Shown here: positions 4,884 to 12,695 of the stretch, one piece after another
Layout: each line of letters begins with the position of its first letter
Position numbering within the stretch: position 1 is the first letter of the stretch
From: Azospirillum thiophilum
GTDB lineage: Bacteria > Pseudomonadota > Alphaproteobacteria > Azospirillales > Azospirillaceae
Reading direction: 5' to 3'
Assembly (NCBI RefSeq): GCF_001305595.1
Contig: NZ_CP012404.1
Coordinates: 248,001 to 312,000, forward strand
Length of the DNA: 64,000 bases
The notes under the pieces: generated by a model
Told to the model about the DNA's origin: nothing
Database searches by the model: none
What the model saw: only the letters and a program-made list of their open reading frames with translations
Translations under genes and position numbers: made by a program

Positions 4884-5648
4884 TCACCACGTCGCGTCGG
4901 GATAGGAGCGCGGCAGGAACTGCATCTCGGCCAGCAGGAAGCCCAGATGCTCGCTGTGCTCGCCGCGCCGGCCGCCCTTCTGCATCCAGCCGTCGGCCGG
5001 GCGATCGAGGGTGGCGTCAATCAGCACCGCCTCGACGCGGGCGGTCCAGGCGGCCTTCAGCTCGGCCGGGTCGGGAAGGATGCCGGCGGCGACCAACGCC
5101 TGTTCGGCCTCGTCCCGCTCGAACATCTCGCCGGTGTAGGGCCACAGCCGGCCGAGCGCGTCGGCGACCTTGGCGTGGCTGACGTCGGTGCCGTCGCCCA
5201 GCCGCACCAGCCAGTCGCCGCTGTGGCGGACATGGTAGCGCACCTCCTTCACCGCCTTGGCGGCGATGCCGGCCAGCGTGGCGTCGGTCGAGGCGCAGAG
5301 CCGCTCGTACAACTCCACCGCCCAGGCATCGTGCAGGAACTGGCGGACGATGGTGTGGCCGAAGTCGCGGTTGGGCTGCTCGACCAGCAAATGGTTGCGG
5401 TAGTCGAAGACGTCGCGGCGGTAGGCGAGGCGATCCTCGTCGCGGCCCTTGCCCTCCAGCTCGCCAGCATGGGTCAGCAGCATCCGGGCATGGCCGACGA
5501 GGTCGAGCGCGACGTTGGTCAGCGCGATGTCCTCCTCCAGCTCCGGCGCGTGGCCGCACCATTCCGACAGCCGGTGCCCGAGCACCAGCGACGTGTCGCC
5601 GAGCCGCAGCGCGGTGCCGAACAGGGCCTGTTGCAGTTCCGTGCTCAT
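4884..5648 (-). CDS. paaC: phenylacetyl-CoA epoxidase structural subunit PaaC
   Basis: Ferritin-like structural subunit that forms the PaaAC core of the 1,2-phenylacetyl-CoA epoxidase. 254 residues, normal length. The N-terminal stretch RLGDTSLVLGHRLSEWCGHAP and the helix containing YRNHLLVEQPNRDFGHTI are typical. PaaC lacks a complete diiron site in characterised members and supports PaaA. It lies 15 bases after paaB and 7 bases before paaD, consistent with one transcript. Confidence 0.96.
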   Translation of the reverse strand: MSTELQQALFGTALRLGDTSLVLGHRLSEWCGHAPELEEDIALTNVALDLVGHARMLLTHAGELEGKGRDEDRLAYRRDVFDYRNHLLVEQPNRDFGHTIVRQFLHDAWAVELYERLCASTDATLAGIAAKAVKEVRYHVRHSGDWLVRLGDGTDVSHAKVADALGRLWPYTGEMFERDEAEQALVAAGILPDPAELKAAWTARVEAVLIDATLDRPADGWMQKGGRRGEHSEHLGFLLAEMQFLPRSYPDATW

Positions 5649-5663
5649 CGGATGGTCTTCCGG

Positions 5664-5966
5664 CTAGATGTTTTTGACGTCGGCGGGGATGTCGTAGAAG
5701 GTCGGGTGGCGGTAGACCTTGTCGTCGGCCGGGTCGAACAGGCTGGCCTTCTCCGACGGGTCGGATGCCGCGATGGCCGCGGCCGGCACCGCCCAGATGC
5801 TGACGCCTTCACCGCGGCGGGTGTAGACGTCGCGGGCATTGTCCAGCGCCATACGGGCGTCGGCGGCGTGCAGGCTGCCGACATGCTTGTGCGACAACCC
5901 GTTCTTCGGCCGGATGAAGATCTCGAACAGCGGCCAGTCCTTGCGGTCGGTGGTGGGGCGATCCAT
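5664..5966 (-). CDS. paaB: phenylacetyl-CoA epoxidase subunit PaaB
   Basis: Small subunit of the phenylacetyl-CoA epoxidase, thought to bridge PaaAC heterodimers. The 100-residue protein contains the family signature WPLFEIFIRPKNGLSHKHVG near the N-terminus and ends with FYDIPADVKNI. The ATG at 5966 is chosen because the residues before it in the open frame are low-complexity Pro/Ser/Arg and belong to the paaA overlap. 25 bases after paaA. Confidence 0.96.
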   Translation of the reverse strand: MDRPTTDRKDWPLFEIFIRPKNGLSHKHVGSLHAADARMALDNARDVYTRRGEGVSIWAVPAAAIAASDPSEKASLFDPADDKVYRHPTFYDIPADVKNI

Positions 5967-5991
5967 CGTCTCTTCCCTCGGAATTCTTGGG

Positions 5992-7005
5992 TCAGCCGGC
6001 CTTCTTGAGGGCGCGCTGCTTGCGTTTGGCGGCGTGGGCGGTGGCGGCGTCCCGAACCCAGGCGCCGTCATCCCACGCCTTGCGGCGGGCCTCGAGGCGC
6101 TCGCGGTTGCAGGGACCGTTGCCCTTCAGGATCTCGTTGAACTCGGTCCAGTCGATGGCGCCGAACGCGTAATGGCCGGTTTCGGCATCGAAACGCAGCT
6201 CCGGGTCGGGGATCGTCAATCCCAGGAACTCGGCCTGCGGCACGGTGGCGTCGACGAAGCGCCGGCGCAGCTCGTCATTGGAGAAGCGCTTGATCTTCCA
6301 TGCCATGTTCTGCGACGAGTGGGCCGACTGCTCGTCGGACGGCCCGAACATCATCAGCGCCGGCCACCACCAGCGGTTCAGCGCGTCCTGCGCCATCCGC
6401 TTCTGATCGGTCGTGCCCTGGGCCAGCGCCAGCATCAGCTCGTAGCCCTGGCGCTGGTGGAAGCTCTCCTCCCGGCAGATGCGGACCATGGCGCGGGCAT
6501 AGGGGCCGTAGGAGCAGCGGCAGAGCGGCACCTGATTCATGATCGCCGCCCCGTCCACCAGCCAGCCGATGGCGCCGATGTCCGCCCAGCTCGGGGTCGG
6601 GTAGTTGAAGATGCTGGAATATTTTGCCTTGCCCGACAGCAGCTGGCCGACCAGCTCGTCGCGCGACACGCCCAGCGTCTCCGCCGCGCTGTAGAGGTAG
6701 AGGCCGTGCCCGCCCTCGTCCTGGACCTTGGCCAGCAGGGCCACCTTGCGGCGCAGCGTCGGCGCGCGGGTGATCCAGTTCCCTTCCGGCAGCATGCCGA
6801 CGATTTCCGAATGGGCGTGCTGCGAGATCTGGCGGACCAGCGTACGGCGGTAGCCGTCGGGCATCCAGTCGCGCGGCTCGATCTTCTCTTCGGCGTCGAC
6901 GCGGTCCTGGAAGCGGCCCAGGAGAGCGGAGTCCTCTTCCGTCACCAGCCGGGGAGACGGCTGAGCGCCCTGCTCGGTCTTGGTGTCCAAAGCTTGCGTG
7001 TACAT
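5992..7005 (-). CDS. paaA: phenylacetyl-CoA epoxidase catalytic subunit PaaA
   Basis: Diiron monooxygenase subunit that epoxidises the ring of phenylacetyl-CoA using O2. Near-identical stretches to characterised PaaA are obvious, e.g. [59 protein letters not shown] and [11 protein letters not shown], which carry the Glu/His diiron ligands. First gene of the operon. I place the start at the ATG at 7005 (337 residues); an ATG at 7011 and a GTG at 7029 are also possible, and the conserved core begins about 30 residues in. A Crp/Fnr-type box lies 54 bases upstream. Confidence 0.97.
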
Positions 7006-7058
7006 CGGCATCCCCGAGATGGATTGCACGTCCAGCGAACAATGCGTCTTGGGAAAAT

Positions 7059-7072
7059 ATGATACAGATCAA
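7059..7072. promoter_or_regulatory. Crp/Fnr-family box upstream of paaA
   Basis: Read on the minus strand the site is TTGATCTGTATCAT, a 13-of-14 style match to the FNR/FixK palindrome TTGAT-N4-ATCAA with one mismatch in the last arm position. It lies 54 bases before the paaA ATG. Whether it activates or represses cannot be read from sequence. The nearby Crp/Fnr gene (7651-8472) is one candidate binder. Confidence 0.6.
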
Positions 7073-7139
7073 CGCCTGTAAAGCGTATTTGTGTGTCGCT
7101 TTTGAAGGGGGTGGGCTTCTCCAGAGTATATACAATAAT

Positions 7140-7158
7140 ATCAATATGTTAAATTGAT
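7140..7158. promoter_or_regulatory. inverted repeat ATCAA-N9-TTGAT in the paa upstream region
   Basis: Perfect 5-base arms separated by 9 bases in the AT-rich block 135 bases before paaA. The spacing is wider than an FNR box; it may be an operator for another paa regulator or chance symmetry in AT-rich DNA. Confidence 0.3.
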
Positions 7159-7544
7159 TTTTCATCGTGGGTCCGGCGGCTTTTTATGGCAGGTATGCCT
7201 GGCATTAGCCCAATCGGCGATACAGGGAATGCATCTTTCCGACTGTCTTGTGCGGTGCGGAAAAGATGGGGCCAAGAGGGAAGGGCGGTGCAAGACGCTG
7301 CTGAGCGGATTGCTCGGCTTTTGCCGGCCCCCGGCAGCGATGCCGCCTTACGTTGCAGATGCACCGAACGGGAAGGGTGCCATCCGAACGCATCCATACG
7401 TATCAATTATCGATGGAATTCAAGAAGATCCGCCGGCATTGGCGGGATTGCCCGGAAGTCGTCGCAAGTCGATGCGGCGGCTCGTGAGCTGTCTGGCGGC
7501 ACAACCATTTGTTTTGAATGGTCGAATCTATGACCGACCATCAG

Positions 7545-7573
7545 AGCGCCTTCCGGCGCCTCGTTTTCGTTTG
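7545..7573 (+). terminator. possible plus-strand rho-independent terminator without an upstream gene
   Basis: Stem GCGCC/GGCGC (7546-7550 with 7555-7559) with an extended outer pairing GAG/CTC and a TTCC loop, followed by the T-rich run TCGTTTTCGTTT. On the plus strand no protein gene precedes it, so it could end a small RNA transcribed away from paaA, or be coincidental. Confidence 0.3.
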
Positions 7574-7650
7574 GCGTTCTGTGATGAGGACCGCTGGTGG
7601 ATGCCCCCTCCGCCATCGTTGACGGAGGAGGGAGGCACTCCAACCTTTGC

Positions 7651-8472
7651 TCATGCCTTGGACCGTTCAGCTCCATTGGCGTTGGCGTGACGGCGGCCGT
7701 CTTCGGAAAAGGCACGTTCCAGTCGACGCGGGGCGCGGATGAGGTGCAGGTACAGTTCGTCGAACTGGCCGACGGAAGCGAGCTGGCGCACGTCGTTCAC
7801 GGTGATGCGCTGGCCGTTCAGTTCGATCAGCCCGCTGTCGCGCAACCGGCGCAGGGTGCGGTTGATGTGGACGATGCTGAGCCCCAGCGCGTCGGCCAGG
7901 ATCTCCTGCGTCACCGGCAACACGAAATGTCCGTCGGCGGCCATGTTCACGATGCTGAGGCGGCGCAGCAACTCCACGATCAGATGTGCCGTACGCTCCA
8001 GCGCTGTGCGCCGGCCGAGGCTGAGCAGCCGTTCGGCGACGATGGCCTCTTCCCGCGCGCCGGACCAGGCGAGCGCCGCCGCGAGGCGGGGGAAGGAGCG
8101 GAACAGCTCGCCGATCCGCTCGGGCGGGAAGCTCGCCACCTCGACCGGGGTCAGGGTGGTCACGCTGTGGTCCGCGGATTCGAACAATGTGCAGTACATG
8201 CCGATGATGTCGCCGGGAAGAACGAAGTTCACGACCTGCCGCCGCCCGTCCGGCAATGCCTTGTGACGGATCGCCCACCCGTCCCGCATGATGCGGACGT
8301 CACGGTACCGTTCGCCCTGTTGTAGAAGATCGGTCCGGGGAGGATGCCTTGCGATTGTCCTTTCCAATTCGGAAAGATACATTTTTTCCTCATCCGACAG
8401 GACGAGGTAGCTGCTCAATTTGAGCCACAATGGAGTGGACTCTTGTACGCGGCTCGCCGGGGCGCGAGTCAT
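7651..8472 (-). CDS. Crp/Fnr family transcriptional regulator
   Basis: 273 residues. An N-terminal cyclic-nucleotide-binding-type beta-barrel (about 45-130, with LPDGRRQVVNFVLPGDIIGM) is followed by a dimerisation helix and a winged helix-turn-helix (about 186-220, VTQEILADALGLSIVHINRT). The N-terminal cysteine cluster that carries the [4Fe-4S] centre in FNR is absent; the only cysteine in this part is Cys94. It is therefore not an FNR-type oxygen sensor and belongs to one of the sensor-less subgroups common in rhizobia and Azospirillum. It reads in the same direction as the paa operon, 645 bases upstream of it. An EcfG-type promoter sits 45 bases before its start. Confidence 0.9.
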   Translation of the reverse strand: MTRAPASRVQESTPLWLKLSSYLVLSDEEKMYLSELERTIARHPPRTDLLQQGERYRDVRIMRDGWAIRHKALPDGRRQVVNFVLPGDIIGMYCTLFESADHSVTTLTPVEVASFPPERIGELFRSFPRLAAALAWSGAREEAIVAERLLSLGRRTALERTAHLIVELLRRLSIVNMAADGHFVLPVTQEILADALGLSIVHINRTLRRLRDSGLIELNGQRITVNDVRQLASVGQFDELYLHLIRAPRRLERAFSEDGRRHANANGAERSKA

Positions 8473-8516
8473 GGTCGTCTCTTTGCCTTCTTTGTCCTAA
8501 TATTGGCGCCTTAATG

Positions 8517-8542
8517 AACGGTTGCGCCGTTGAGCCGGTTCC
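8517..8542 (-). promoter_or_regulatory. EcfG-type general stress promoter of the Crp/Fnr gene
   Basis: Minus strand carries GGAAC (8542-8538), a 17-base spacer, then CGTT (8520-8517), an exact match to the alphaproteobacterial EcfG consensus GGAAC-N16/17-CGTT. It is 45 bases before the Crp/Fnr start codon, a suitable distance. Identity of the sigma factor is inference. Confidence 0.65.
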
Positions 8543-8717
8543 GCGCGGTCTCGAACGATTAAGGCTTTCGACAAAGGCGGCCACAACATAGGTTAAAGGC
8601 GCTGAGATTTTTCTCGAACGTGGTGCGACGCCCCGCCGACCCGTTTGTTGTTCCTATGCCCTTAAGGCAGTCCAGGCGGTAGACCGCGACACTGGATCGA
8701 ACGACAAGACGGGGGGC

Positions 8718-8981
8718 GTGATGATGGCGGAGGAGGAGGCGGCAGGCATGGCCGCGCTCTCGATTTGTGAATCGCTGGTGATCGCCATGGTCGAGAAAGG
8801 CTTCTTCACCGTGGAGGAGGTGCGGGGCCTTCTTGAAGATGCGGCAGCGCCGTATCTGCGCCAGGACCAGCAGCGCTCGGAAATGCAGGAGCCGCTGCTT
8901 CTGCATCATGACATGGCGGTGCGCCTCATCGAGCGGCTCGTCATTCAGGTGGATGCGGCCGGCCCGCTGCGACGCGGTTAG
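8718..8981 (+). CDS. small conserved-looking hypothetical protein
   Basis: 87 residues, acidic N-terminus (MMMAEEEAAGMAAL), then a helical body with ICESLVIAMVEKGFFTVEEVRGLLEDAA. I do not recognise a named family, although this helix pattern resembles short unannotated proteins of alphaproteobacteria. A strong GGGGGG ribosome-binding run directly precedes three possible starts (GTG 8718, ATG 8721, ATG 8724). It is divergent from the Crp/Fnr gene. No membrane segment or signal peptide. Confidence 0.7.
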   Translation: MMMAEEEAAGMAALSICESLVIAMVEKGFFTVEEVRGLLEDAAAPYLRQDQQRSEMQEPLLLHHDMAVRLIERLVIQVDAAGPLRRG

Positions 8982-9105
8982 GGTGCGGCGAGTCTGTTTG
9001 GGAAACGCACGGGAGCGTCATGTCATCGTTTGACGGGCGGATCGCGTCGGATCGATGTCGATCCTGCGCGGTCCGCCCCGGCTCCGCCGTTGCTCAGCGG
9101 CGTCG

Positions 9106-11487
9106 TCAGTCTTGCGGCATGGCGGCGCCGAGATTGCGGCCGGCAGACCCTTGCGGCCTTGCGGACAAGCTCAGCAGCTGGGCCACGTCCTTTGCGGCGA
9201 TCGGTTTGTGCAGGATGCGGTAGCCGCTGGCCTCGGCGTCGGCGATGCGCTGGGGGGCGGTATCGCCGGTCAGCACGACGCTGAGCGGCGAAGGGCGACC
9301 TTGCGCCTGAAGCGCGGTCTCCACCGCCCGGATGGCCTCCAGCCCGGTGGCGCCAGCCTCCAGCCGGTAATCGGCGATCACCAGATCGGGCGTCTTCGAC
9401 CCCTCGCGCAGCAGGCGCAGTGCGTCCGCCGCGCTGTCGGCGGCAAGCACGCGCCAGCCGAAATCCTCGATCAGCAGGGTCAGCCCTTCGCGCACCAGCG
9501 GGTCGTCGTCGATCACCAGCGCCATGCCCCGGCCCGGTTCCGGCGGCCGCTCCGCCGTCTGCGCCGTTATCGCCGCGGCGGCGCGCAGGGCCGGGGTCGG
9601 TATGTCCAGGGTGAAGCAGGAGCCCTTGTCCGGGCGGGAGGCGACATGCACGCGGTATCCCAGCAGCCGCGCCAGCCGGTCGACGATGGCCAGCCCCAGC
9701 CCCAGCCCCTTGCCCCGGTTGCGGGTCGGATTTGAGACCTGATAGAACTCGTGGAAGATGCGCTCCAGATGTTCCGGCGAAATGCCGATTCCGGTGTCGT
9801 GGATCTGGATGCTCAGGCTGCCGCGCGTCCGGCGGCAGCCCAGCAGGATACGGCCATGGTCGGTGTAGCGCAGGGCGTTCTCCACCAGATTGCGGATGAT
9901 CCGTTCCAGCAGTGCCGGGTCGGCGTTCAACGTCACGGTTGTGGGGACGCTGTGGAAGGCGACGCCCTTTTCCGCCGCGCGCAGCCGGTATTCGCCCTCC
10001 AGCCGCGCGAAGATGGCGCCCAGCGACACCGCCTGCACATTGGGCGACACGGTGCCGGCATCCAGCTTGGAGATGTCCAGGATGGCGTCGAGCAGGCGGC
10101 ACAGCGCGTCCATCGACGCCTCGATGCTGCCGACCAGCGACGCGGCAGGGTGGTCGCCCAGCCGGATCCCCAGCGCCGAGGTCAACAGCACCAGCGACTG
10201 CACCGGCTGGCGCAGGTCGTGGCTGGCCGCCGCCAGGAAATGGGTCTTGGCGGCATTGGCCCGCTCCGCCACCATCAGGGCCATCACCGCCTCCTGGCGC
10301 GACCGCTCCGCCTCGTTGCGGGAGCCTTCGGCTTCGGCACGCGCCTGTTCCGCCCGCTCGGCCAGCGTCCGCTGGATGGTGATCTCCTCCGCCGCGCGCA
10401 TCTCCCGCTCGCGCTGGATCGCCGCGATGTGGTCCAGCATGGCGTTGAAGCCCGTCGCCAGCGCCGACACCTCGTCGTTGCCGCGCACCGTCGCGCGCTG
10501 CCCGGTGAAGCCGTCGGTGGCGATGGCACCGGCCAGCCGCTCCAACTCGCGCAGGGAGCGGGTCAGATGGTTGCCGACGGCGCGGCTGCCGACATAGATC
10601 GCCAGCAGTGCGGCGGCCGCCGCCAGCCCGTAGGCCGGCAGCATCCAGGACAGGAAGGCGGCGGTCGGCACACCGGGAGCCTCCAGCCGCAGCCGCAGGT
10701 CCAGCCCGGCCAGCCTGTCGGGCACCTTCAGCGGGATCGTCACCGCCACCATGCCGTCCGGCACCGGCGGCGGCGTTTCATTGGCATGGAGAAGCATCGC
10801 TTCCGGATGCAGCACCATCGCATCGAGCGGCACCTTGTAGATCAGCGCACCTTCCGGCGAGGCGGTGCGGGAATAGATCAGCATTTCCGCAGCCAGGAGG
10901 AAGTGCGTTCCGTCCTGATGCACCACGGTGGCCGCGGGGCGTCCGGCGGCGATGGCCTTGCGCAGCCAGGCCATGTCGGCCGGGCTGACGGCCAGCGCGC
11001 CCGAATGGCGGCCGTTGTCGGCGATCGGCTCGCCTTCGAAATCGGTGAAGACCATCGCCACCGGCACGCTGGCGATGTGGTTGAAGCTGCGCAGGAAGGG
11101 GGCCAGGTAGGTTTCCTTGCCCGCGGAATCGACCAGCGCGGTAGCCAGCACGCTGTTGTCGGCCAACTCGCGCACCGTCGTCGCGATCGTGTTGACCACC
11201 CCTTCGGTCTGGCGCGCGGCGAGCGTGGCGTTCGCCTCCACATTGGCATGGTGCTGGCGCGCCAGATGGCGGCTCGACACGACATAGAGGCTGGCGCCGA
11301 TCAGGACGGCGATCAGCACCCCCAGCATCAGCGACACCAGCGCGAAACGGCGGGCCAGCCGGCCGGACGTCGGCAACCGTCGGGGCGCGTTGGCGGAGGC
11401 GCCGGGAAAAGCGCCGCGGCGGCGATGGCCGGCGCTGCCCGGTTCCGGATCGGGCAAGGGGTCCGGGAGAGAGTCGGGGCCGGACAT
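9106..11487 (-). CDS. membrane hybrid sensor histidine kinase with C-terminal receiver
   Basis: 793 residues. Transmembrane segments at about 48-70 and 278-300 flank a periplasmic sensor region of about 205 residues. Then come HAMP (about 301-355), a long coiled coil (360-412), HisKA with His423 (ASHDLRQP), HATPase_c (N-box Asn537, DTGIGIS, KGLGLGL) and a receiver domain (Asp706, Lys761). The HDLRQP box and the long coiled coil resemble orphan hybrid kinases fed by periplasmic proteins. The ATG at 11487 lies 8 bases after the stop of a substrate-binding protein gene, so the two are one operon. No output regulator is adjacent. Confidence 0.93.
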   Translation of the reverse strand: MSGPDSLPDPLPDPEPGSAGHRRRGAFPGASANAPRRLPTSGRLARRFALVSLMLGVLIAVLIGASLYVVSSRHLARQHHANVEANATLAARQTEGVVNTIATTVRELADNSVLATALVDSAGKETYLAPFLRSFNHIASVPVAMVFTDFEGEPIADNGRHSGALAVSPADMAWLRKAIAAGRPAATVVHQDGTHFLLAAEMLIYSRTASPEGALIYKVPLDAMVLHPEAMLLHANETPPPVPDGMVAVTIPLKVPDRLAGLDLRLRLEAPGVPTAAFLSWMLPAYGLAAAAALLAIYVGSRAVGNHLTRSLRELERLAGAIATDGFTGQRATVRGNDEVSALATGFNAMLDHIAAIQREREMRAAEEITIQRTLAERAEQARAEAEGSRNEAERSRQEAVMALMVAERANAAKTHFLAAASHDLRQPVQSLVLLTSALGIRLGDHPAASLVGSIEASMDALCRLLDAILDISKLDAGTVSPNVQAVSLGAIFARLEGEYRLRAAEKGVAFHSVPTTVTLNADPALLERIIRNLVENALRYTDHGRILLGCRRTRGSLSIQIHDTGIGISPEHLERIFHEFYQVSNPTRNRGKGLGLGLAIVDRLARLLGYRVHVASRPDKGSCFTLDIPTPALRAAAAITAQTAERPPEPGRGMALVIDDDPLVREGLTLLIEDFGWRVLAADSAADALRLLREGSKTPDLVIADYRLEAGATGLEAIRAVETALQAQGRPSPLSVVLTGDTAPQRIADAEASGYRILHKPIAAKDVAQLLSLSARPQGSAGRNLGAAMPQD

Positions 11488-11495
11488 CCGCGCCG

Positions 11496-12695
11496 TCACT
11501 CCGCCGGGACCAGCACGCCATCGGCGCGGAAGCGGGCCATCAGCAGGTCGTCCGGGCCCAGTGCCTCGTGACGGCCGGGGGCGAAGGGGCGGTCGAAGTC
11601 GCGGATCACCCCGCGGTAGGGGCCGACCTGTTCCAGCGCGTCGCGAACGGCGGCGCGGTCGGTGGTGCCGGCGCGGTCGATCGCCAGCGCCACGATGCGG
11701 GTCAGGTCGTAGGCGTGCAGGAATCCCACCGGCGACACGATGTCCTCCGGCCGATGGATGCCGAACAGCCGCCCGGCGGTCTCCAGCACCGGAGCCAGCC
11801 GGTCGCGCGGGATGTTGAAAGGGCTGACCGTCTGGATCACGCTGAAATCCACCGACCTGAGCGCCGGCCCGGCCTGGCCGACGAAATCGCCGCCGGTCAC
11901 CCCCCAATGGCTGAGGATCGGCAGCCGGCGTTCCGGTGGAAGGGCCGCCATCTCGCGCACCAGCACCGCGGCCTCGTCGTCGTTGGCGACCAGCACGATG
12001 GCCTGGGCGCCGGCGGCTGCCAGCGCCTCGTACTTGTCGATCAGCGAGCGGTCCCGCCAGTTGTACCAGGCGGTGCCGACCACATCCGGAACACGGTGGG
12101 CGACGAGATGGCGGTTGGCGGCCTCCAGGTTGGACCGGCCCCAGGCGGTGTTGGTCAGCAGCAGGCCGACGCGGGTCAGGCCGCGGTCGGCCGCGCGCGC
12201 CAGCAGGAAGGGCATCGCCAGACTGTCGCGCAGCGACAGGCGGAAGATGTAGTTGGGCCGCATCCCGTTGTCGACGATGGCGTCCGCCGACGACCAGGGC
12301 GCCAGGAACAGGGTGCGGGTCTGTTCCAGCACCGGCAGTTCCTCGATCACCACCGGGCTGAACCGGCCGCCGAACACCGCGACCAGATCGGGGATGGTGG
12401 CGAGTTCCCGGATGTTCTTGATGCCGCGGGCGGAGATCGACCGGTGTTCGCGCGTGACCAGGGCCAGCGGCCGGCCGCCCAGCACGCCGCCCTCGCGGTT
12501 GATCTCGTCGATGGCGGTCAGGATGCCGCGTTCGATGGCTTCGGCCGAGGTGCTGTTGGACAGCCCGAATTCCCCGTCCAGCGCCAGGATCACCGGCTCC
12601 CGGCCGTCAGGGGAGGTTGCGGTCGCCGGTGCCGCCCACGCGAGCGCAAGCAGGAGGAGGATCGGCGACAGAAGGCGGAAGGCTGCGGCAGTCAT
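11496..12695 (-). CDS. periplasmic amino-acid-type ABC substrate-binding protein (LivJ-like), likely kinase partner
   Basis: 399 residues with a signal peptide (about 1-26, FRLLSPILLLLALAWAAPATA) and the two-lobed type I periplasmic binding fold of branched-chain amino acid receptors (GILTAIDEINREGGVLGGRPL, PILSHWGVTGGDFV). No permease or ATPase gene is next to it. Instead it is followed 8 bases later by a hybrid sensor kinase. This suggests that it is a ligand receptor feeding signalling rather than transport. The ATG at 12695 is chosen to begin directly with the signal peptide. Confidence 0.9.
   Translation of the reverse strand: MTAAAFRLLSPILLLLALAWAAPATATSPDGREPVILALDGEFGLSNSTSAEAIERGILTAIDEINREGGVLGGRPLALVTREHRSISARGIKNIRELATIPDLVAVFGGRFSPVVIEELPVLEQTRTLFLAPWSSADAIVDNGMRPNYIFRLSLRDSLAMPFLLARAADRGLTRVGLLLTNTAWGRSNLEAANRHLVAHRVPDVVGTAWYNWRDRSLIDKYEALAAAGAQAIVLVANDDEAAVLVREMAALPPERRLPILSHWGVTGGDFVGQAGPALRSVDFSVIQTVSPFNIPRDRLAPVLETAGRLFGIHRPEDIVSPVGFLHAYDLTRIVALAIDRAGTTDRAAVRDALEQVGPYRGVIRDFDRPFAPGRHEALGPDDLLMARFRADGVLVPAE

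Follow-up and report, generated by a model that had tools for sequence, protein, structure and literature searches.

Among receptor couples in which a periplasmic substrate-binding protein (SBP) works with a membrane signalling protein, TorT-TorS, XylFII-LytS and similar couples use different SBP families and different sensor folds, and NspS of the NspS-MbaA polyamine receptor is a PotD-type polyamine SBP. AmiC is cytoplasmic and binds AmiR. SBP-driven kinases and cyclic di-GMP (c-di-GMP) enzymes are already known (PMC11113362; PMC9602780; PMC8967002), and the SBP and kinase genes are adjacent in 10 of 11 characterised couples (PMC11113362). Which SBPs serve receptors rather than transporters is an open question in which gene adjacency alone has misled: tests of neighbouring SBPs with the Pseudomonas aeruginosa kinases AgtS and AruS were negative, and AgtB, PA0602 and PA4985 failed to bind adjacent kinases (PMC11113362). 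In the open-licence PMC literature we found no account of a Peripla_BP_6 SBP clade common to kinase and c-di-GMP outputs. Here, we analyse a gene pair, encoding a Peripla_BP_6 SBP and a membrane hybrid sensor histidine kinase, in a 64,000-nucleotide stretch of Azospirillum thiophilum DNA (contig NZ_CP012404.1, positions 248,001 to 312,000; called the window below).

We consider it quite probable that the pair is a modular SBP co-receptor, similar in its working to LuxP-LuxQ or NspS-MbaA and a member of neither. Because the SBP is repeatedly encoded beside the sensor receptor in different bacteria, it is most likely that receptor's detachable detector and not part of a transporter. The proposal that the two proteins dock gains weight beyond adjacency from a separate SBP clade, from a sensor domain that stays constant while outputs change, and from the decay of a sensor motif where the SBP is absent.

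Linkage of the binding protein to one sensor domain

Within the host's family, 31 of 82 genomes had an SBP match (E ≤ 1e-20), 23 of them with at least 53% identity; each of these 23 carries the sensor part of the kinase directly behind the SBP. Seven loci with distant SBP matches (26 to 31% identity; L032 to L038) were inspected, and each continued into a LivH-like open reading frame (ORF). Weak matches to the family sensor profile (61 of 82 genomes) mainly covered the HAMP end; only full-length sensors were counted, giving 27 genomes, namely the same 23 plus four (G011, G012, G029, and G047) with no such SBP alongside. In one of the 23, a draft assembly of 1140 contigs (L030, G031:C1055), the SBP gene is broken across two frames, which may reflect sequencing error or decay.

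An alignment of 14 SBPs, used to scan named genomes, returned 80 loci from Azospirillum, Massilia, Noviherbaspirillum, Rhizobacter, Hydrogenophaga, Thiohalocapsa, and others, and from metagenome-assembled genomes (MAGs) named Desulfobacteraceae, Helicobacter, and Myxococcales; the closest named SBPs were all from Azospirillum. In 76 of the 80 loci the gene next to the SBP encodes a membrane protein carrying this sensor (sensor downstream in 72; upstream in L090, L106, L107, and L116), and two of the other four (L072 and L109) stop at a contig end. The SBP genes of the remaining two lie at 5277-6374 (L051) and 8001-9164 (L084), the latter with genes for a HisKA_2 kinase and for a receiver protein just upstream. 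Three of the reversed loci (L106, L107, and L116) have a GGDEF-EAL partner before the SBP (about 5000-7970), and their flanks resemble, by eye, a tripartite tricarboxylate transporter.

At the class level (385 genomes; E ≤ 1e-45), the 12 matches comprised the window itself, four sensor-paired SBPs (L120 to L123), and seven LivH-paired ones (L124 to L130). The phylum scan (398 genomes) found the SBP at E ≤ 1e-40 in 58 genomes (70 places) and the sensor at E ≤ 1e-15 in 34 genomes (38 places), 35 of the 38 just behind the SBP. Forty of the 70 SBP places were followed by a sensor (five on weak sensor matches of 29 to 50 bits), 26 by LivH, and two by a contig end (G615 and G626); two had neither neighbour. 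The SBP and sensor genes thus stay neighbours across genomes, as is characteristic of the functional class of SBP-dependent receptors. Distances between SBPs and between sensors over 98 loci correlated with a Spearman coefficient of 0.70 (200 permutations, ≤0.15), to which common genome ancestry contributes.

SBPs were placed in a quick IQ-TREE phylogeny of 117 rows (100 sensor-paired, 15 permease-paired, and 2 with neither), from which near-copies, duplicate loci, 28 later-fetched stretches, and truncated or contig-end SBPs (L031, L072, L083, L108, L109, L115, L151, and L195) were excluded. One branch splits sensor-paired from permease-paired SBPs (SH-aLRT, 96), and pairing state changes once on the tree against a shuffled mean of 14.4; long branches (L204, L033, L113, and L118) leave the internal details unsure. 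A LIVH profile, made from eight next-door ORFs picked by eye, detected no LivH-like gene when run on the DNA fetched for the sensor-paired loci. Five LivH-like proteins tested by Pfam (one from L038, the other four detected by the profile) were all BPD_transp_2. The original prediction had proposed co-occurrence of the two genes across genomes as a check and named orthologues sitting regularly in full ATP-binding cassette (ABC) operons as its refutation; the pairing extends far outside the genus, and the permease-paired SBPs lie across one branch.

The constant element on the partner side is the sensor domain, the only part that partner proteins share. By Pfam, 19 of them are kinases with HisKA, HisKA_3, or HATPase only (some with receiver and Hpt domains), PAS-GGDEF proteins, or GGDEF-EAL proteins; the remainder were classed by motifs, with L107 and L116 assigned by similarity to L106. 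On the SBP tree, 63 classified rows (47 kinase and 16 c-di-GMP) require at least nine switches between kinase and c-di-GMP enzyme, compared with at least 11 (mean, 14.5) when output labels are shuffled. Two Desulfobacteraceae MAGs, one with a hybrid kinase (L079) and one with a GGDEF protein (L081), have SBPs 70% identical and sensors 52% identical in a near-identical SBP-sensor layout. Kinases, GGDEF proteins, and GGDEF-EAL proteins can replace one another as the output of the sensor.

These data bear on two other explanations. The SBP could supply a transporter encoded elsewhere while the kinase controls the same pathway of uptake or catabolism, the two genes sharing an operon but their products making no contact. 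LivJ-fold SBPs are ordinarily transport proteins, and with 44 Peripla_BP_6 matches in the host genome (7.6 Mb, 8 contigs), unlinked permeases are surely available; nonetheless, we regard this explanation as unlikely, given that the SBP clade stands apart from permease-paired SBPs, that its constant partner is a sensor domain while the regulatory output varies, and that no third gene family besides general signalling proteins recurs in the flanks across genera. A purely historical neighbourhood of functionally unlinked proteins, for which AgtS and AruS provide the precedent (PMC11113362), was already disfavoured and is very improbable in view of linkage at 76 of 80 loci, spread over Pseudomonadota and the single MAGs named above and present in both gene orders.

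Sensor fold, hallmark motif, and predicted docking

An AlphaFold2 (AF2) model of the sensor and the helices on either side of it, built from 63 rows (mean predicted local distance difference test [pLDDT], 93.6; predicted template modelling score [pTM], 0.85), predicts a double-PAS (dCache) fold. The top Foldseek match in the PDB was Vibrio cholerae LuxQ (3c38; E, 2.9e-6), followed by KinD and DctB, and LuxQ as it occurs in complex with LuxP (1zhh_B) was matched at an E value of 9.7e-4. VIA-align gave a Z score of 13.3 against 1zhh_B (root mean square deviation, 4.1; 176 aligned), in a tie with DctB, AHK4, McpU, and others.

In sensor-model numbering, D81, D110, and G174 are invariant across 28 and across 63 aligned sensors, and L79, S82, Y88, L89, and P91 are kept in at least 90%. 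Among 118 distinct SBP-paired sensors, D81 is present in 110 and Y88 in 101, with Y, H, or F at position 88 in 112. The six sensors without an adjacent SBP (L143, L144, L145, L146, L194, and L200) have D81 in one case and Y88 in none. After thinning to <60% identity, Y88 remained in 58 of 67 SBP-paired sensors versus none of 5 SBP-less ones; the rows are related by descent, and Fisher values for the contrast should not be read as probabilities. The hallmark motif, to which D81 and Y88 belong, is partly lost in sensors that have no SBP. Three of these losses can be set beside a close SBP-paired relative (L144, 68% to L025; L194, 64% to L158; L143 and L145, about 50%), and in L144 (kinase, 5103-8341) the SBP is gone from between syntenic hydrolase and kinase genes, with paaA behind retained. 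In the model, the motif sits between helices 73-80 and 84-94, past the long N-terminal helix, a position that would probably place it in the membrane-distal half of the sensor.

The same sensors count in the appraisal of a third explanation, that the sensor's own dCache pocket takes the ligand and the SBP buffers, scavenges, or delivers it. The fold does match dCache domains that bind ligands directly (DctB, McpU, TlpA, and PctA), and sensors lacking an SBP exist; however, those sensors are altered precisely in the hallmark motif (D in five of the six and Y in all six), and linkage this tight across several phyla would exceed the needs of a buffer. We judge this explanation to have little chance of being correct.

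Docking itself was approached through a read-through chain of the Azospirillum lipoferum SBP and sensor (685 residues; pLDDT, 86.2; pTM, 0.78), in which the 40-residue join (374-413) is unstructured. The alignment had 30 rows, of which 8 were fused (paired); a larger fusion alignment was dropped, as its sensor-only rows (about 15% identity) were badly placed. Since the SBP makes up about 54% of the chain, we estimate that a pTM of about 0.55 to 0.6 would be expected under random placement; the value obtained exceeds that expected for independently placed parts and hints at confident docking. The predicted interface of SBP and sensor that the original prediction had proposed as a check is in this way only indirectly suggested.

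In the proposed mechanism, the SBP would be secreted and close around a small periplasmic ligand, and the loaded SBP would dock on the double-PAS domain, probably at or near the membrane-distal half bearing the DSxGRExYL motif. Docking would then reset the kinase via HAMP, the direction of the effect being conjectural, and a phosphorelay target may lie downstream of the kinase. A broader scenario, which seems to us somewhat favoured, is that a LivJ-fold SBP clade left transport and became an exchangeable detector reading one motif (DxxGRxxYL) on a dCache domain grafted to kinases of various types, diguanylate cyclases, and GGDEF-EAL proteins, and that one branch added a DctP-type SBP in the same chain.

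Several observations weigh against the co-receptor reading. AgtS and AruS show that adjacent SBP and kinase genes need not encode interacting proteins (PMC11113362). For two SBPs that fall in the sensor-paired clade (L051 and L084), the DNA fetched contains no sensor, and two places in the phylum scan have neither sensor nor LivH (G608 at 801 kb and G476 at 707 kb). Sensors without an adjacent SBP exist, and the motif has exceptions: of the 118 SBP-paired sensors, 17 are without Y88, and the five weak SBP-paired phylum sensors, outside that count, seem by eye to be without the Y. Many dCache domains equal LuxQ as a match in the second aligner, and the likeness is therefore to dCache domains at large, not to LuxQ in particular. 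The read-through model drew on just 8 paired rows and lacked a control.

Together, the tree, the sensor motif, and the natural SBP losses offer a sequence rule separating signalling from transport SBPs, and the same evidence predicts a docking site. Orthologues with kinase or c-di-GMP outputs are a ready set for building ligand-swappable receptors.

The gene pair, its neighbourhood, and double binding proteins

The ORFs and Pfam agree with the original prediction that a membrane hybrid kinase begins 8 bases behind a LivJ-like SBP (Table 1), and the 205-residue periplasmic part that it assigned to the kinase fits the segment between two hydrophobic stretches seen by eye. The SBP exceeds the cut-off of Peripla_BP_6 (PF13458; 31.7 bits), and at E ≤ 0.01 Pfam matched it to Peripla_BP_6, ANF_receptor, and Peripla_BP_5 and to nothing else. 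Its ORF starts with ATG, and the N terminus, judged by eye, resembles and is probably a Sec signal peptide. HAMP, HisKA, HATPase_c, and Response_reg of the kinase each exceed their Pfam cut-offs. An in-frame GTG lies 12 bases 5′ of the kinase ATG; translation from it would bring a 4-base overlap with the SBP stop, and the kinase may therefore not begin at the ATG. The sensor scored 20.4 bits with dCache_1 (PF02743), below the cut-off of 45, as did the partner proteins of L110 (27.1 bits) and L113 (25.7 bits). By sequence the kinase has a NahK/ErcS-like core that scores beneath the cut-off of the hybrid kinase model (NF041832; 337.1 bits versus 400).

Table 1. Features of the SBP-kinase pair, in window coordinates
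Feature	Position	Strand	Basis
SBP, Peripla_BP_6 (LivJ fold), 399 aa	11496..12695	-	ORF; Pfam 94.5 bits
Spacer of 8 bases, SBP stop to kinase ATG	11488..11495	-	ORF positions
Membrane hybrid sensor histidine kinase, 793 aa	9106..11487	-	ORF; Pfam HAMP, HisKA, HATPase_c, Response_reg
Periplasmic sensor domain, kinase residues ~72-277, predicted dCache	10657..11274	-	Alignments, AF2, Foldseek, VIA-align
Hallmark motif DSAGKETYLAPF, kinase residues 120-131, candidate docking element	11095..11130	-	Alignments, model
HAMP domain	10426..10575	-	Pfam 33.6 bits
HisKA dimerisation/phospho-acceptor domain, NahK/ErcS-like core	10054..10251	-	Pfam 35.6 bits
HATPase_c catalytic domain	9595..9921	-	Pfam 92.2 bits
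C-terminal receiver domain (Response_reg)	9178..9519	-	Pfam 45.6 bits

Neighbours identified by Pfam or NCBIfam were an alpha/beta hydrolase, OsmC, a Crp/Fnr-type regulator, PaaA, and an HNH protein. No ABC permease or ATPase was found among the neighbours checked in this way, in agreement with the original prediction, and hence no operon with LivH/M/F/G of the kind that marks HAAT-type transporter SBPs; nor was an Hpt or response-regulator gene recognised among them. The paa genes and the Crp/Fnr-type regulator (7651-8472) lie near the pair, at 4884-8472 of the window, with PaaA at 5992-7029. Among the 15 Azospirillum loci that the scan of named genomes returned, 10 have PaaA inside the fetched flanks, and no locus from other genera does, so the paa link is local and phenylacetate was not adopted as the ligand. 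The fold of the A. lipoferum orthologue SBP was closest to 4q6w (Z, 41.3), followed by LivJ 4gnr (Z, 37.2) and AmiC 1pea (Z, 36.0). As 4q6w is a 3-hydroxybenzoate complex and the folds of leucine and GABA binders score nearly as high, 3-hydroxybenzoate was not adopted as the ligand either.

In 23 distinct places (38 locus entries less 15 duplicates), a DctP-type (TRAP) SBP is N-terminal to the Peripla_BP_6 SBP in one open frame (L153, 1480-3687; L154, 1489-4014; L167, 433-2601; L172, 1486-3696; and 19 more). Pfam confirmed both domains in all four fusions tested, all 23 adjoin the sensor receptor, and the 22 included in the phylogeny group as a single clade (SH-aLRT, 97). The double SBP is a possible two-ligand detector; if so, it would be a periplasmic two-input device, with one receptor reading two ligands.

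Comparison with known systems

With TorT-TorS, XylFII-LytS, and other SBP-kinase couples, the pair shares the adjacency of SBP and kinase genes, whereas the kinase falls short of the TorS model (TIGR02956; 177.5 bits versus a cut-off of 676.5). The SBP has its fold in common with the AmiC/LivJ/UrtA group (Peripla_BP_5 and 6), in which AmiC is a LivJ-fold protein serving as a sensor, but it matched the urea UrtA models weakly (23.4 bits versus 492.75).

The c-di-GMP members of the clade are like NspS-MbaA, the polyamine receptor of Vibrio and Sinorhizobium, in that an SBP acts on a membrane GGDEF-EAL protein (PMC8967002; PMC9993111). Unlike NspS, the SBP of the pair is not of the polyamine type, the Pfam matches given above being its only ones.

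LuxP-LuxQ, which senses AI-2 in Vibrio, likewise combines a periplasmic SBP with a hybrid kinase that has a double-PAS periplasmic domain, a kinase core, and a receiver. The kinase, however, scored 134.2 bits against the LuxQ_Vibrio model (NF041947; cut-off, 1200), the same sensor drives GGDEF/EAL outputs in other genera, and the SBP belongs to Peripla_BP_6 and is not of the LuxP type. The analogy with LuxP-LuxQ drawn in the original prediction therefore does not extend to family membership; it stands for the sensor fold and the layout of the pair.

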